From: Candidatus Binatia bacterium
GTDB lineage: Bacteria; Eisenbacteria; RBG-16-71-46; SZUA-252
Direction: 5' to 3'
Assembly (NCBI GenBank): GCA_035631035.1
Contig: DASQJL010000099.1
Coordinates: 1 to 35,310, forward strand
DNA: 35,310 bases
The stretch's first letter is position 1. Each line of letters begins with the position of its first letter. Made by a program: the position numbers and the translations under genes. Of this stretch, positions 29,205 to 34,134 are shown piece by piece. The notes beneath the pieces are model-generated. The model was given only the letters and a program-made list of their open reading frames with translations, was not told the DNA's origin and searched no databases.

Positions 29205-29432
29205 TCAGCGGAATTTCTTGCGGTAGGCCTCGATGATCTCGGCGCGACGCGGGTTCGGCCGTCCGCTCTTGGGGAGGCGCTTCAGCGCCTGGACCGAGAG
29301 ACGGATCTGCTCCACGTAGGTCCGGCAGGCCGAACACCGGTCCATGTGCTCGAGGAACTCCCGGCGGGCGCTTTCCTCGAGGGTCTCGTCGAGCGCTTCC
29401 GCGACGACGTCGAGCGCCTCCTTGCAGTTCAT
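29205..29432 (-). CDS. Zinc-binding anti-sigma factor, ZAS/zf-HC2 type (75 aa)
   Basis: A short soluble protein with the anti-sigma zinc motif: C3 near the N-terminus, H29, C33 and C36 in EHMDRCSAC (HxxxCxxC). No membrane helix follows, so it is a cytoplasmic, probably redox- or metal-responsive, regulator of the sigma factor. ATG at 29432 overlaps the sigma stop (ATGA), giving coupled production of the pair. The domain is short at 75 residues, with a basic C-terminus. Confidence 0.88.
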   Translation of the reverse strand: MNCKEALDVVAEALDETLEESARREFLEHMDRCSACRTYVEQIRLSVQALKRLPKSGRPNPRRAEIIEAYRKKFR

Positions 29433-30118
29433 CGAGTCTCCTGGACCGGGGTCTCTGCGGTGGACGGGCGCGTACCTTCGCGGAGATACAGGTCGAGCGC
29501 GCGACGGATGCGCGCGCGGCCGCGGTGAAGGAGCACCCTCATGTTGGTCTCGGTCAGGTCCAGGATATTACAGATTTCCGAGGGGGACACGTCCTCGACG
29601 TCGCGCAGCAGCACCACCTGCCGCTGCGCCTCCGGAAGCCCGTCCAGGGCCGCGCGCACGATCTCCAGCGCTTCCAGCCCCTGCACGACCTGCTCGGGAG
29701 TGTCGAGGGTCCAGGGCTCGGGCGCGGCCTCCCATAACCCGACCCGTCCCCGTCCCAGGTCCCATTCCTCGCGATCCGGGGCCGCGCCGTTCGCCGGCGC
29801 GACGCCGGCGCGGCGGGCTTCGCGCGAGGCGAGGGTCCGGGCGCGGCGAATCAGGATGCTGAAGATCCAGGTGCGGAGGGACGACCGTCCTTCGAACCCG
29901 TCCAGGCCGCGGATCACGCCCAGCCAGGTCTCCTGGACGATGTCCTCGGCGAGCGCGGGGGAGGACGTGAAGGTGGCGGCCAGCGCCTGGAGCCTGCAGT
30001 TCAGGCCGTCGACGAGCGCCGTGAACGCCGCTTCGTCTCCCGCCCGAAGCTTCACGAGGAGGGCGCCTTCCGGACCGGGAACGTCCGGCAGGACCGGGTT
30101 TCCTTCCATCCGCTTCAT
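29429..30118 (-). CDS. ECF sigma factor (229 aa)
   Basis: Region 2 is seen in EDIVQETWLGVIRGLDGFEGRSSLRTWIFSILIRRA and region 4 in LPEAQRQVVLLRDVEDVSPSEICNILDLTE with the helix-turn-helix. A linker of about 60 residues between them is somewhat long and rich in Pro and Trp. It would direct RNA polymerase to a stress regulon under control of the adjacent zinc anti-sigma factor. ATG at 30118 has no Shine-Dalgarno sequence; TACACT ends nine bases upstream. The secreted cytochrome gene starts divergently 169 bp away, so it could be a target; no matching ECF promoter was confirmed. Confidence 0.92.
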   Translation of the reverse strand: MKRMEGNPVLPDVPGPEGALLVKLRAGDEAAFTALVDGLNCRLQALAATFTSSPALAEDIVQETWLGVIRGLDGFEGRSSLRTWIFSILIRRARTLASREARRAGVAPANGAAPDREEWDLGRGRVGLWEAAPEPWTLDTPEQVVQGLEALEIVRAALDGLPEAQRQVVLLRDVEDVSPSEICNILDLTETNMRVLLHRGRARIRRALDLYLREGTRPSTAETPVQETR

Positions 30119-30286
30119 ACCCCGAAAAGTGTACTCCCGCTGCCCGGCCCGAAGAACGGCGGCGCTGTAATGAACGAAGCCGGGCCGGGACTAATACGCA
30201 GATGGCCGCGGCGCATGACCGGGGTTTTCGTCATCGAACGCGCCTCCACGTCGTTTCATTCAGGCATCGCTGAGGAGGTTTTCACC

Positions 30287-32017
30287 ATGTCCCCCAGACT
30301 TCGTTCTTGGATCGCGGTGTCCGTGGCGCTGGCCGGCCTGTACCTGGTCGTCAGAGCGCCGCAGGCCGCGGAGAGCCGAAAGCGGCCGAAATCCCACCTG
30401 CCCGGCGCAGGCTTCGACCAGATCATCCGCCAGCACGCGAACACGATGCTCGACGAGGGGCGGCAGACCTTCCGCTATGACACCTTCGGCGACGAGGCGT
30501 TCTGGGGCGGCACCCTTCGCCTGCACGAGGCGATCGAGGGGGCCGCTCTGGGCGGCGTGGGTCCGGGGGTCAGCCCCCGCACGGCGCTCGAGGTCGGCCT
30601 CAAGGTCGACGCGGACGCGCTCGCTCCGGCGGTCCGCGACGCGATCGAAGGGGGGCAGGTCAATCTGGACGACCCCGCCGTCACCGTGGAGCTGCTCCGC
30701 GAGAACGCGGTGGTCGGCGTCACCGGAACCGTGGGCGGCGACGGACGGCTCCAGACGATGGGCATCCAGTGCGCCTTCTGCCATTCGACCGTGGACAACT
30801 CCCTGGCGCCCGGCATCGGGCACCGCCTGGACGGATGGGCGAACCGCGATCTGGACGTGGGGAAGATCGTGTCACTGGCTCCGAATCTGCAGCCGCTCGC
30901 GGATCTCCTGGGCACCGACGTGGCGACGGTGCGTCGCGTTCTTCTCTCCTGGGGGCCCGGCAAGTTCGACGCGGAGCTGATCCTGGACGGCAAGGCGTTC
31001 CAGCCCGACGGCCGCTCCGCGGCCACGCTCATCCCCCCCGCGTTCGGGCTGGCCGGGGTGAACCTGCACACCTGGACCGGCTGGGGCTCGGTGCCGCACT
31101 GGAACGCGTTCGTCGCGAATCTGGAGATGCATGGATCGGGGACCTTCTTCGACCCGCGGCTGGACGACGCATCCCAGTTCCCGATCGCCGCCGCGCATCA
31201 CTTCGGCCACGTCACGACGACGGACGACCGGATCACCCCCAAGCTGCCGGCGCTGCATTACTACCAGCTCTCGATCCCGGCGCCGAAGCCGCCGCCGGGC
31301 AGCTATGACGAGGCCGCGGCGGAGCGGGGCGACGTTCTCTTCACGGGGAAAGCCAAGTGCGCGACCTGTCACACCGACGAGCTCTACACCGAACCGGGAT
31401 GGAACATGCATCGCGGGGAAGAGATCGGGATCGACAATTTCCAGGCCGACCGCGCTCCCGATCACCGGTATCGCACGTCGCCGCTGAAGGGACTCTGGAC
31501 GCACCAGAAAGGGGGCTTCTTCCACGACGGCCGCTTCCCGACCCTTCTCGCGGTGGTGAACCACTACAACACCTTCTTCGGGCTGGGGCTCAGCGAATCG
31601 GAAAAGAGCGACCTGGTGGAATACCTGAAATCGCTGAGCGACGACGTGCCGCCGACGATGCTGGCCAACGCGACCCCCGCGATGGAGGCCCCGTCGTCCG
31701 CCTCCCCGGCTGCGTCGCGATGGAAGCTGATCACGACCCCCACGCCGACCCGCCGCGGCGAGGCGTTTCGGATTCAGCTGGCCGGAGCGACGGCGGCGAC
31801 GACGCCCTCCGACCTGGTTGTGCGGATCTTCGACGTGCAGGGGCGCGCGGTGGCCCGCTTCGATCGGGAGCGGCTGGAGTTCGCCAGGGAGGGAGCGTCG
31901 CTGCGCTGGGATGGAACCGACCGGACGGGCAGGACGGTCGCGGCGGGCGTCTACTTCGTTCGCGCGGAGGCGCCCTCCGCGTCGTATCGGGAACAGAGCA
32001 AGGTCGTGATGCGCTGA
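30287..32017 (+). CDS. Secreted c-type cytochrome with two haem motifs and FlgD-Ig-like C-terminus (576 aa)
   Basis: A leader (MSPRLRSWIAVSVALAGLYLVVRAP) precedes a long alpha-helical part with CAFCH (162-166) and CATCH (358-362), two sites for covalent haem, plus a distal conserved GLWTHQKGGFFHDGRFPTL region as in MauG/di-haem peroxidase-related proteins. Residues about 477-576 form a FlgD-Ig-like domain (VVRIFDVQGRAV, LRWDGTDRTGRTVAAGVYFVR) that in related phyla ends many secreted proteins and may serve export or anchoring. ATG at 30287 follows AGGAGG by eight bases; an upstream Met at 30170 was rejected. Substrate unknown; electron transfer or peroxide reduction is likely. Confidence 0.88.
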   Translation: MSPRLRSWIAVSVALAGLYLVVRAPQAAESRKRPKSHLPGAGFDQIIRQHANTMLDEGRQTFRYDTFGDEAFWGGTLRLHEAIEGAALGGVGPGVSPRTALEVGLKVDADALAPAVRDAIEGGQVNLDDPAVTVELLRENAVVGVTGTVGGDGRLQTMGIQCAFCHSTVDNSLAPGIGHRLDGWANRDLDVGKIVSLAPNLQPLADLLGTDVATVRRVLLSWGPGKFDAELILDGKAFQPDGRSAATLIPPAFGLAGVNLHTWTGWGSVPHWNAFVANLEMHGSGTFFDPRLDDASQFPIAAAHHFGHVTTTDDRITPKLPALHYYQLSIPAPKPPPGSYDEAAAERGDVLFTGKAKCATCHTDELYTEPGWNMHRGEEIGIDNFQADRAPDHRYRTSPLKGLWTHQKGGFFHDGRFPTLLAVVNHYNTFFGLGLSESEKSDLVEYLKSLSDDVPPTMLANATPAMEAPSSASPAASRWKLITTPTPTRRGEAFRIQLAGATAATTPSDLVVRIFDVQGRAVARFDRERLEFAREGASLRWDGTDRTGRTVAAGVYFVRAEAPSASYREQSKVVMR

Positions 32018-32032
32018 GCCCGAAGAATCCCG

Positions 32033-32061
32033 TTGATCCCGACGGCCGCCTCCCGTAGGTT
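32033..32061 (+). promoter_or_regulatory. Candidate promoter of the DtxR-like regulator gene
   Basis: TTGATC and TAGGTT are separated by 17 bp and end right where an inverted repeat begins (32062). The expected transcription start falls inside that repeat, the usual arrangement for a self-repressing metalloregulator. Confidence 0.4.
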
Positions 32062-32085
32062 TGCCGACTCAAACTGAAGTTGGCA
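32062..32085. promoter_or_regulatory. Candidate operator: dyad overlapping the start of transcription
   Basis: TGCCGACT and AGTTGGCA are inverted copies with one mismatch, separated by eight bases. The dyad lies directly after the -10 box and 20 bp before the ATG of the DtxR-like gene, so it is a plausible autoregulatory binding site. No published box for this family member was matched. Confidence 0.45.
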
Positions 32086-32105
32086 TACACAAACAGGAGG
32101 CGGCC

Positions 32106-32669
32106 ATGGCGTCCGCGAGGGTTCGACAGCGACCGGGCTTGTCGGTCAGCAGCGAACACTACCTTCGAACGATCCTCGAGCTCCGCGAGGAGCGCGGCTA
32201 CGCGCGCGTCGTGGACATCGCCGCGCGCCTGGGGCTCACCAAGGGCTCGGTCTCGGTCGCGCTTACGCACCTGGCCGAGCGCGGCCTCGTGCGCTTCGAC
32301 GCCGCCCACTTCCCGCTGCTCACCCCGGCGGGCCGGAGAGTCGCCCTCGACGTGCGCGGCCGGTTCCAGATCGTGCTCACGTTTCTCACGGAAGTGCTCG
32401 GACTCCCCGCTCCGCTCGCCACCGCCGAGGCCTGCCGCTGGGAGCACGTGGTGAGCCACGACGTGGCCGACCGCATCCTCGACTTCATCCGCTTCACCGC
32501 CGACACCCACGGCCGGGAGGAGCTCCTGGCGTCCTTCGCCGAATACCGCCGCTCCTGCACCTCGGGGGACTCGTGCTCCACCTGCTCGGTGCACGGCCCC
32601 CTTCGACTCTATTGCGCCCATGAAGCGGACGATCGTCACCAAGGGGGAACGAGTGCCTCGAAGGAATGA
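32106..32669 (+). CDS. DtxR/MntR-family metal-dependent repressor with a Cys-rich tail (187 aa)
   Basis: The N-terminal winged helix (RVVDIAARLGLTKGSVSVALTHLAERGLV) is followed by the metal-binding and dimer domain. ACRWEHVVSHDVADR corresponds to the C102, E105 and H106 ligands of DtxR (here C110, E113, H114). Unusually the tail has C151, C157, C160 and C170, including CSTCSVHG and CAHE, which could bind a second metal or an iron-sulfur cluster. There is no SH3-like third domain. ATG at 32106 follows AGGAGG with five bases between. Promoter and dyad at 32033-32085 suggest autoregulation. Its last codons overlap the next gene, an outer-membrane protein, which is likely controlled by it. Confidence 0.9.
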   Translation: MASARVRQRPGLSVSSEHYLRTILELREERGYARVVDIAARLGLTKGSVSVALTHLAERGLVRFDAAHFPLLTPAGRRVALDVRGRFQIVLTFLTEVLGLPAPLATAEACRWEHVVSHDVADRILDFIRFTADTHGREELLASFAEYRRSCTSGDSCSTCSVHGPLRLYCAHEADDRHQGGTSASKE

Positions 32670-33474
32670 GTGGGTGCCGCGCCGGGTTGTCGCCACGGTG
32701 TTCGTACTGGCCCTGGTCTCGATGCTGCTTCCTCGATCGGCCCGTGCCGATCGCAAGTACTTCGTCGAGACCTACACGCCCTATCTGGCGCCCGCCGGCG
32801 AGCTCGAGCTGGAGACGTGGCTCACCTCCCGGTCCGGAAAGGCGGAGGACCAGGGCTCCACGGCGTGGGAGTGGCGGCAGGAATTCGAGTACTCGATCAC
32901 CAATCGCCTCACGGCGGCGGCCTATCTGAATTTCGATCAGCCTGGCGGTGGTGCCCTCCGCTTCAAGGCGCCGTCGCTGGAATTCATCTACGCCCTGGCC
33001 GATCCCGGACGGATCCCGGGACATCCCGCCCTCTACCTCGAGACGACGGAGTCGGGAGAGGAGCTGGAATTGGAACCCAAGCTCCTTCTGGCGCACCGGT
33101 CGCGCCGCTTCGTCGGCGCCATGAATCTCGTCGGCGAATTCGAGTTCCGGCACAACGACGAGGAGCTGCTCGAGGACGGCACGGTGATGCGGAAGGCGTG
33201 GGCGTGGAGGGTCGTCGGCGGGGCCGCGTACGAGCTCTCCTCACGCGTCTCGGCGGGCGTGGAGGGGCGCTACGTGGCCGAATATCCGAACTTCGGCCCG
33301 CGGTCGGGCTCGGCCTTCTCCCTCGGACCCGTGTTCAACGTCCAGGCAGGCGAGGTCCAGATCGGCGTCGGCGTGCTGCGCCAGCTTAGAGGCAGCCCCC
33401 ACACCTCCGGCGATCTGAACCTCGACGAATTCGAACGCACACAGGTTCGCGCCATCATCGGCGTGGAGCTGTGA
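32653..33474 (+). CDS. Exported outer-membrane barrel-like protein (273 aa)
   Basis: A signal peptide (VATVFVLALVSMLLPRSARA) precedes a series of amphipathic strands (LELETWLTSR, FEYSITNRLTAAAYLNF, ELEPKLLLAHRS, SAFSLGPVFNVQAG) typical of a monomeric outer-membrane barrel. The strands end in IIGVEL. Family not recognised with certainty. GTG at 32653 has GGGGG five to six bases upstream and overlaps the regulator gene; ATG at 32620 is an alternative. Its stop overlaps the start of the haem-lipoprotein gene, so regulator, barrel and haem lipoprotein are translated together. A metal- or haem-uptake role is an inference from the DtxR-like neighbour. Confidence 0.72.
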   Translation: MPRRNEWVPRRVVATVFVLALVSMLLPRSARADRKYFVETYTPYLAPAGELELETWLTSRSGKAEDQGSTAWEWRQEFEYSITNRLTAAAYLNFDQPGGGALRFKAPSLEFIYALADPGRIPGHPALYLETTESGEELELEPKLLLAHRSRRFVGAMNLVGEFEFRHNDEELLEDGTVMRKAWAWRVVGGAAYELSSRVSAGVEGRYVAEYPNFGPRSGSAFSLGPVFNVQAGEVQIGVGVLRQLRGSPHTSGDLNLDEFERTQVRAIIGVEL

Positions 33475-33794
33475 GACGAACGCCGCTCGCCCGTTTCGGG
33501 ATCGGCGCGCCTCTCCTCGCTCTCTTCGCGTGGGGCTGCGCCCATGCGCCGGGAACGCCCCGGGCGAGCGTGGCCGGCGTGGAGGAGAGCTACGGCTGGC
33601 ACCTCCTGGAGCGCCGCTGCCAGGGATGCCATGCCCTGCCCGACCCTCGAAGACATTCCCGGACGCGCTGGGTCAAAGGGATCGAACAGATGCGCGGGCG
33701 GTTCGCGATGCCGGCGTCGGATTGGGACACGCTGCTGGCCATGGTGCCCGCGGATACGGTCTCGGCTGATCCTACTCGGGAAGCGCCCCGCTGA
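33471..33794 (+). CDS. Small mono-haem c-type cytochrome, probable lipoprotein (107 aa)
   Basis: A hydrophobic leader ends in LFAWGC, an imperfect lipobox with C23, after which the chain carries one haem-binding site CQGCH (50-54). A Met in RFAMPASDW (about residue 80) is a candidate second haem ligand. The protein probably shuttles electrons in the periplasm or at the outer membrane. GTG at 33471 overlaps the preceding stop (GTGA). The final 23 bases overlap the convergent membrane-protein gene. It belongs to the metalloregulator operon. Confidence 0.82.
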   Translation: MRRTPLARFGIGAPLLALFAWGCAHAPGTPRASVAGVEESYGWHLLERRCQGCHALPDPRRHSRTRWVKGIEQMRGRFAMPASDWDTLLAMVPADTVSADPTREAPR

Positions 33795-34134
33795 CGGCGC
33801 GCCGCCACTGCTCCGGCGTGAGCGGGCCGTGGACGGCGACGAAGAGCACCGCCGCACCGTAGACCAGAAGGTCCCAGCGGAACTGCTCGTGCAGATGCGC
33901 GAGCCACGCGATCGCGATCGCGAGGAGGAGCCCCGCCGCCCCGAGGCGCAGGGTCCGGGGCTGCAGGAAGAGCAGCGCGCCCGCCGCTTCGACCCCGGCC
34001 AGGAGTGCGAGATGAAGGCCGTGTGCGCCCTCGTGGGCCGCGAGGAGCAGCGTGCGAGTGCTCAGGACGAGCAGCGACACGCCGAGCACCCACCAGAGGA
34101 CCACGAACGACCGGATCAATCCGCGCGAGGGCAT
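33772..34134 (-). CDS. DoxX-like small membrane protein (120 aa)
   Basis: Four hydrophobic helices can be seen (about residues 8-26, 36-56, 63-80 and 87-103) with two His-containing loops (AAHEGAHGLHLAL and LAHLHEQF). Size and helix spacing resemble DoxX-type proteins; no diagnostic residues allow a firm name. ATG at 34134 has no Shine-Dalgarno sequence; TAGTAT ends six bases upstream, again suggesting a leaderless message. It overlaps the convergent haem lipoprotein gene by 23 bases and diverges from the LiaF-like gene. Confidence 0.65.
   Translation of the reverse strand: MPSRGLIRSFVVLWWVLGVSLLVLSTRTLLLAAHEGAHGLHLALLAGVEAAGALLFLQPRTLRLGAAGLLLAIAIAWLAHLHEQFRWDLLVYGAAVLFVAVHGPLTPEQWRRAVSGALPE

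Follow-up and report, generated by a model that had tools for sequence, protein, structure and literature searches.

We describe a subfamily of DtxR-type regulators, defined by comparison, in which the primary metal site is altered (His-Cys-Glu-His, HCEH), the ancillary site is not intact, the SH3 domain is missing and the C terminus carries a tail of four cysteines (Cys4 tail); as sampled, the subfamily occurs so far only in the phylum of the source genome. By comparison with its relatives, the subfamily is real, conserved and somewhat unusual, and the promoter of the member from which we started holds conserved tandem sites. It is encoded in a 35,310-nt stretch of DNA (the window, meaning the whole stretch analyzed) of a draft assembly of 3.35 Mb (G000), ahead of a predicted outer-membrane barrel and a mono-haem cytochrome lipoprotein (Table 1). 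We consider it probable that the regulator is an Fe2+-responsive autorepressor of this three-gene unit, which would form an envelope redox operon for iron limitation.

Table 1. Features of the regulator locus, in positions of the window
Feature	Position	Strand	Description
Promoter-like element	32033-32061	+	-35-like TTGATC (32033-32038), 17-bp spacer, -10-like TAGGTT (32056-32061); layout common to 5/5 close promoters
Candidate operator O1, GTTTGCCGACTCAAAC	32059-32074		GTTTG-N6-CAAAC palindrome overlapping the -10
Candidate operator O2, GTTGGCATACACAAAC	32079-32094		One-mismatch copy at an offset of +20 bp from O1, reaching as far as the ribosome-binding site
Ribosome-binding-site-like AGGAGG	32095-32100	+	Read from sequence
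DtxR/IdeR-type repressor	32106-32669	+	187 aa, without SH3 domain; Pfam PF01325 and PF02742; AlphaFold core resembling IdeR 2isy (Foldseek)
Primary metal-site residues H18, C110, E113, H114	32157-32447 (first to last codon)	+	Alignment to IdeR
Cys4 tail, C151-x5-C157-x2-C160-x9-C170	32556-32615	+	Alignment of HCEH relatives
Predicted outer-membrane beta barrel with signal peptide	32620-33474	+	Could also start at GTG 32674
Mono-haem c-type cytochrome, probable lipoprotein	33471-33794	+	CXXCH motif CQGCH

A DtxR-type regulator with an altered metal site

The initial annotation of this locus proposed a DtxR-like repressor, and both Pfam domains confirm this assignment, with scores of 41.4 bits for Fe_dep_repress (PF01325; cut-off 26) and 55.2 bits for Fe_dep_repr_C (PF02742; cut-off 27). 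No NCBIfam regulator model reached its cut-off for this protein (best score 69.6 bits against a cut-off of 153), and the MntR model at 69.6 bits, itself below cut-off like the other MntR models, scored about as high as the DtxR model at 67.0. A Pfam search gave no FeoA/SH3 match in the regulator. Its AlphaFold core retrieved IdeR 2isy as the top Foldseek match, and its closest named relative is encoded on a MAG contig of Candidatus Eisenbacteria, L004, which is also G018:C175.

The protein shares with the IdeR/DtxR repressors of Mycobacterium, Corynebacterium and Saccharopolyspora a winged helix, a dimerisation domain and the conserved residues C102, E105 and H106 (IdeR numbering; C110, E113 and H114 here). 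The annotated retention of the DtxR metal ligands is thus correct for the Cys, Glu and His of the primary site but does not extend to Met10, which is replaced by His (H18), or to the ancillary site, where all three ligands (H79, E83 and H98) have given way to Phe, Leu and Thr. In the recognition helix, P39 and Q43 of IdeR correspond to G47 and V51 (ungapped offset of 8), changes that go together with the changed operator half-sites described below.

We inspected 32 regulators, comprising all 31 matches in 47 genomes (26 of which had a match) and the MntR-like protein L003 of the source genome. The HCEH site is present in 28 of them, the other four being DEEH, MCEH and two DCEH. None of the 28 has a full ancillary triad, and only L103 retains two of its ligands. 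The source genome encodes a third DtxR protein (L124, G000:C43, 4640-5320, minus strand) that has a DEEH site and an intact ancillary site; the next gene in line is Nramp/MntH-like, making L124 a manganese-type control for the Cys-tailed subfamily.

A four-cysteine tail found, as sampled, only within the phylum

The four extra cysteines previously noted at the C terminus (C151, C157, C160 and C170) are present, and the tail, as C-x5..9-C-x2-C-x3/4/9-C, recurs in 26 of the 28 HCEH regulators of the phylum. One of the two exceptions (L093) is truncated at the edge of its contig; the other (L109) is a true absence. The tail spacing is absent from all four non-HCEH regulators among the 32, three of which (L098, L106 and L107) have tail cysteines at other spacings. 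C151, C157 and C160 are invariant across the 14 rows of an alignment whose other 13 members share 29-61% identity with the regulator. In 26 of the 27 complete HCEH rows, the tail accompanies both the replacement of Met10 by His and the decay of the ancillary site.

Elsewhere, we found the Cys4 tail in none of 35 best matches (30 loci from the best-scoring matches and 5 starting genomes). The 30 loci came from 188 matching genomes in one draw of 296 genomes, centred on a record titled Acidobacteria, and phylum specificity is to be read as sampled in that draw and the 5 starting genomes. A tblastn search of plasmids with a feo-type paralogue as query returned 230 records, with many among the matches listed annotated as MntR. 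No Cys-tailed DtxR protein came up in literature searches, judged by titles and abstract openings. The AlphaFold model of the regulator is uninformative on the tail (pLDDT < 50).

On a tree of 31 regulators and an IdeR fragment, leaving out L093, the window regulator groups with L084, L085, L086 and L109 (group 1); the IdeR fragment, which has a long branch, also falls within this group, a placement flagged as unsure by the tree program. Group 2, with six rows, is its sister (join supported at 91/80), and a feo class holds 16 rows (94/91). The Cys4 label requires three changes on this tree rather than one; a single origin of the tail with later losses is possible.

Tandem candidate operators at the regulator promoter

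A strict sigma-70 scan found no promoter for the element at 32033-32061. All five group-1 promoters share the order TTGNNN, 17 bp, TANNNT, followed by a GTTTG-N6-C(A)A(A)AC palindrome beginning within the -10. The O1 motif is exact in four of them and matches at 9 of 10 positions in the fifth (L109), always at the same position relative to the -10. An exact GTTTGN6CAAAC occurs once in the 3.35-Mb source assembly, at O1, and this uniqueness makes it likely, as predicted from sequence, that the regulator acts on its own promoter. The extended form AGTTTGN6CAAAC has its sole site at the regulator in G000, G018, G025 and G034. Across the phylum we found seven distinct sites of this form in six genomes that lack a close orthologue, about the control rate (8 forward and 9 reverse in controls over the 47 genomes). 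Shuffling of the window region yields the exact O1 motif in 0.02% of cases; because we picked this motif with the orthologues in view, the whole-genome scans are a better test than the shuffles.

When up to one mismatch is allowed, the source genome holds six O1-type sites, O2 among them, against nine in the control, and O2 lies exactly 20 bp downstream of O1. We estimate the chance of five other random sites landing within 100 bp of O1 at about 3 in 10,000. We do not claim a wider regulon in this genome, as the six one-mismatch sites do not exceed the control. Over the five close promoters, +20 is the top of 62 offsets, with a mean of 6.8 of 10 matches (all-offset background: mean 2.29, sd 1.08) and individual scores of 9, 6, 6, 5 and 8, so that O2 is weak (5-6) in three. 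The +20 site is second or third best in 5/7 group 2 promoters and has 5/12 matches in the other two; no consistent +20 site appears in promoters of the feo class. Since 20 bp is about two helical turns, O1 and O2 lie on the same face of the DNA. Both are likely operators of the regulator, as predicted from their conservation.

The two sites differ from those of IdeR/DtxR in half-site and in layout. At the O1 position, group 2 promoters carry the IdeR box TTAGGNNNNCCTAA, exactly in 5/7 and with one mismatch in 2/7. PMC8464063 gives this box as the one-dimer IdeR consensus, and the sister-clade palindrome is of the TTAGG-N4-CCTAA type. The window operator has instead the half-site GTTTG (GTTTG-N6-CAAAC), as opposed to the TTAGGNNNNCCTAA-type operator of DtxR/IdeR. 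IdeR and DtxR bind a single 19-bp box as a pair of interleaved dimers, whereas the window offers two boxes of the one-dimer type, 20 bp apart.

A different dyad, TGCCGACT/AGTTGGCA, had been put forward at this promoter. It is there, at 32062-32085 with 7/8 pairs, spanning the inside of O1 to the left arm of O2, but it is unconserved and at chance level. An equally good pair of 8-bp arms (spacer 0-12) occurs in 22.5% of 5000 Markov shuffles of the region, and none of the four other close promoters has a counterpart at the operator, L084 alone having other 8-bp arms further upstream. We rejected this dyad as an operator.

Envelope redox genes and feo genes beside related regulators

The barrel and the lipoprotein had both been described as overlapping the regulator. 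This applies to the barrel, by 50 nt, provided that ATG 32620 is its start; a start at the in-frame GTG 32674 would leave the two frames separate, as they are in L004, whose barrel ATG comes 3' of the regulator stop. The lipoprotein frame overlaps only that of the barrel, by 4 nt. Pfam has no family for either protein. We infer an outer-membrane barrel for 32620-33474 as a predicted fold; an AlphaFold model built from two sequences was discarded (pLDDT 33.9). The barrel is 54% identical to that of L004 and has homologues in 8/47 genomes. The cytochrome lipoprotein, 48% identical to its L004 counterpart, was found in 4/47 (E<=1e-3), and its conserved M74 is a candidate axial haem ligand.

Other genes flank the trio. 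Directly upstream on the same strand (30170-32017, plus strand) lies the gene of a haem protein whose MauG/cytochrome peroxidase-like matches are weak and whose C terminus has a FlgD-Ig/T9SS-like stretch, preceded at 29205-30118 (minus strand) by an ECF-sigma-like gene and then a short zinc-finger anti-sigma-like gene, both read from sequence. On the opposite strand, a small membrane-protein ORF with a weak SPW-repeat match (33772-34134, minus strand) shares 23 bp with the 3' end of the cytochrome gene.

The suggested link of the regulator to envelope redox genes held up. The regulator, barrel and cytochrome follow in the same order on the L004 contig and recur in G034 split between two contigs, C223 (regulator and barrel start) and C368 (barrel end and cytochrome), so that barrel and cytochrome accompany group-1 regulators in G000, G018 and G034. 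In G025, a TonB-dependent receptor (PF00593, 171 bits) lies downstream of the orthologue. The source genome belongs to family f1; the nearest kin of its group-1 gene are in families f10 and f11, and none of the eight other f1 genomes shows such a gene, a patchy distribution that would fit transfer or loss.

The seven group 2 loci hold ABM-family monooxygenases (three, one of them also with a cupredoxin-like gene), ApbE with a porin-like gene (two) or a porin-like and a cupredoxin-like gene (one); at the last the contig ends. The porin-like and cupredoxin-like proteins at L119 matched no Pfam family, and these labels are our reading of the sequence. At L118 (G029:C147, 5444-8272), the porin-like protein is followed in the same frame by an FMN_bind-like stretch (20.7 bits, cut-off 22) that adjoins ApbE and a Cys4-tailed regulator. 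According to PMC8238504, cytochromes and flavinylated proteins interchange in extracytosolic electron transfer, a pattern also suggested by the neighbours of these related regulators. The redox-envelope idea of the initial annotation thereby gains support from comparison.

Within the feo class, feoB lies downstream in 15 of 16 cases (with feoA detected in 14), and the sixteenth is at a contig edge. These Cys-tailed proteins are likely the iron-uptake regulators of the phylum, judging from their neighbours. We searched the 47 genomes with the FeoC profile (PF09012) and found no separate FeoC. Five genomes gave matches (G030, G043, G040, G041 and G042; L219-L223), all to the winged helices of Cys-tailed feo regulators (profile positions 5-52), with the cysteines outside; neither the window regulator nor the rest of G000 matched.

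Tail-less relatives with the same gene set and regulation had been named as evidence against the proposed link, and such relatives exist in part. The second group-1 copy of G018 (L109; L114, G018:C47, 5050-5556) has lost the tail, precedes feoA-feoB and retains the promoter pattern, and in G016 a FeoA-domain DtxR protein without the tail (L162) directly precedes a barrel homologue. The tail is thus not strictly needed for linkage to the barrel or to feo. Barrels without a Cys-tailed regulator also occur in G037, with no regulator beside the gene, and in G003, near a membrane polyferredoxin.

Discussion

In the mechanism that we favor, when Fe2+ is sufficient a metal-loaded dimer would bind O1 on the -10 and a second dimer would bind O2 up to the ribosome-binding site. 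The bound dimers would block the -10 and the transcript start, keeping the regulator-barrel-lipoprotein operon off; when iron is short, the regulator would lose its metal and the freed promoter would allow the operon to be made. The barrel and the mono-haem lipoprotein might then help to acquire iron, with its reduction outside the cytosol, or provide an electron path under iron shortage. Our choice of Fe2+ rests on the Cys aligned with C102 and on the feoAB and TonB-receptor neighbours of close relatives, although the metal is uncertain given the His in place of Met10 and the lost ancillary site. A further point counts against an Fe2+ response: according to PMC7762939, none of the DtxR relatives without SH3 reported to date responds to Fe2+ in vivo, and the regulator lacks SH3 as they do.

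That report would suit a manganese sensor of the MntR kind, which the regulator resembles in its two-domain size without SH3 and in its similar profile score. We consider this reading improbable. MntR has an Asp/Glu manganese site and other neighbours. In the regulator, the residue aligned with C102 is a Cys, like that of iron-type DtxR/IdeR, instead of a Glu, and Asp is absent from the place of Met10. Its relatives lie upstream of feoAB and a TonB receptor, and the genome separately encodes a DEEH protein of the MntR kind, with Glu aligned to C102, next to an Nramp-like gene. Alternatively, the barrel and the lipoprotein may be a respiratory electron or haem-handling pair, tied to iron only through the iron cost of cytochromes. 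The ApbE, FMN_bind-like and ABM-family neighbours of the sister loci would accord with this, as would the substitution of cytochrome and flavin carriers for one another in extracytosolic chains. The TonB-dependent receptor at the same place in G025 fits import, and we hold the respiratory reading to be possible, if doubtful.

The tail may hold zinc, an Fe-S cluster or a thiol pair. A CXXC with two flanking cysteines is a common arrangement at zinc sites, which tolerate variable cysteine spacing such as that of the fourth cysteine here (x3, x4 or x9). It is plausible, at somewhat less than an even chance, that the tail of an otherwise ordinary DtxR-type repressor forms a structural zinc knuckle or acts as a thiol switch; the feo linkage, which points to iron and not zinc, weighs against the zinc form. 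FeoC, for its part, has been proposed to bind an Fe-S cluster. Like the Cys-tailed regulators, gamma-proteobacterial FeoC is a winged-helix protein of feo loci with four cysteines (C-x4-C-x2-C-x5-C in E. coli), and the only PF09012 matches in the phylum are the winged helices of the regulators themselves. A tail that binds a cluster as a second sensor, reading cluster or redox state in addition to Fe2+ and replacing the ancillary site and SH3, would also account for its joint occurrence with the His substitution and the ancillary decay. We nevertheless rate it as rather unlikely: the profile match spans the winged helix and not the cysteines, and the window regulator has no such match; the low-confidence model of the tail adds nothing; and L109 sits upstream of feoAB without a tail. 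FeoC lacks the dimerisation domain and the DtxR metal site and spaces its cysteines differently, and the likeness of the two motifs may be convergence. More speculative still, and in our judgment unlikely, is a DtxR-fold regulator whose tail is an Fe-S site and which integrates free Fe2+ at the HCEH site with cluster or redox status, merging DtxR and FeoC/RirA-like logic, binding cooperatively to tandem operators spaced by 20 bp and controlling extracytosolic redox operons across the phylum.

Altogether, the comparison defines from sequence, in an uncultured phylum, a DtxR subfamily with an altered metal site and a four-cysteine tail. Its exact predicted operators and its set of feo-linked paralogues provide material for studying DtxR repression that does without the ancillary site or SH3, and the tail-less copy of G018 offers a natural comparison for the tail. 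The subfamily allows one to ask whether DtxR-type proteins also read Fe-S or redox status, and it ties likely iron control to a small outer-membrane barrel and to cytochrome, flavin or cupredoxin-like modules.
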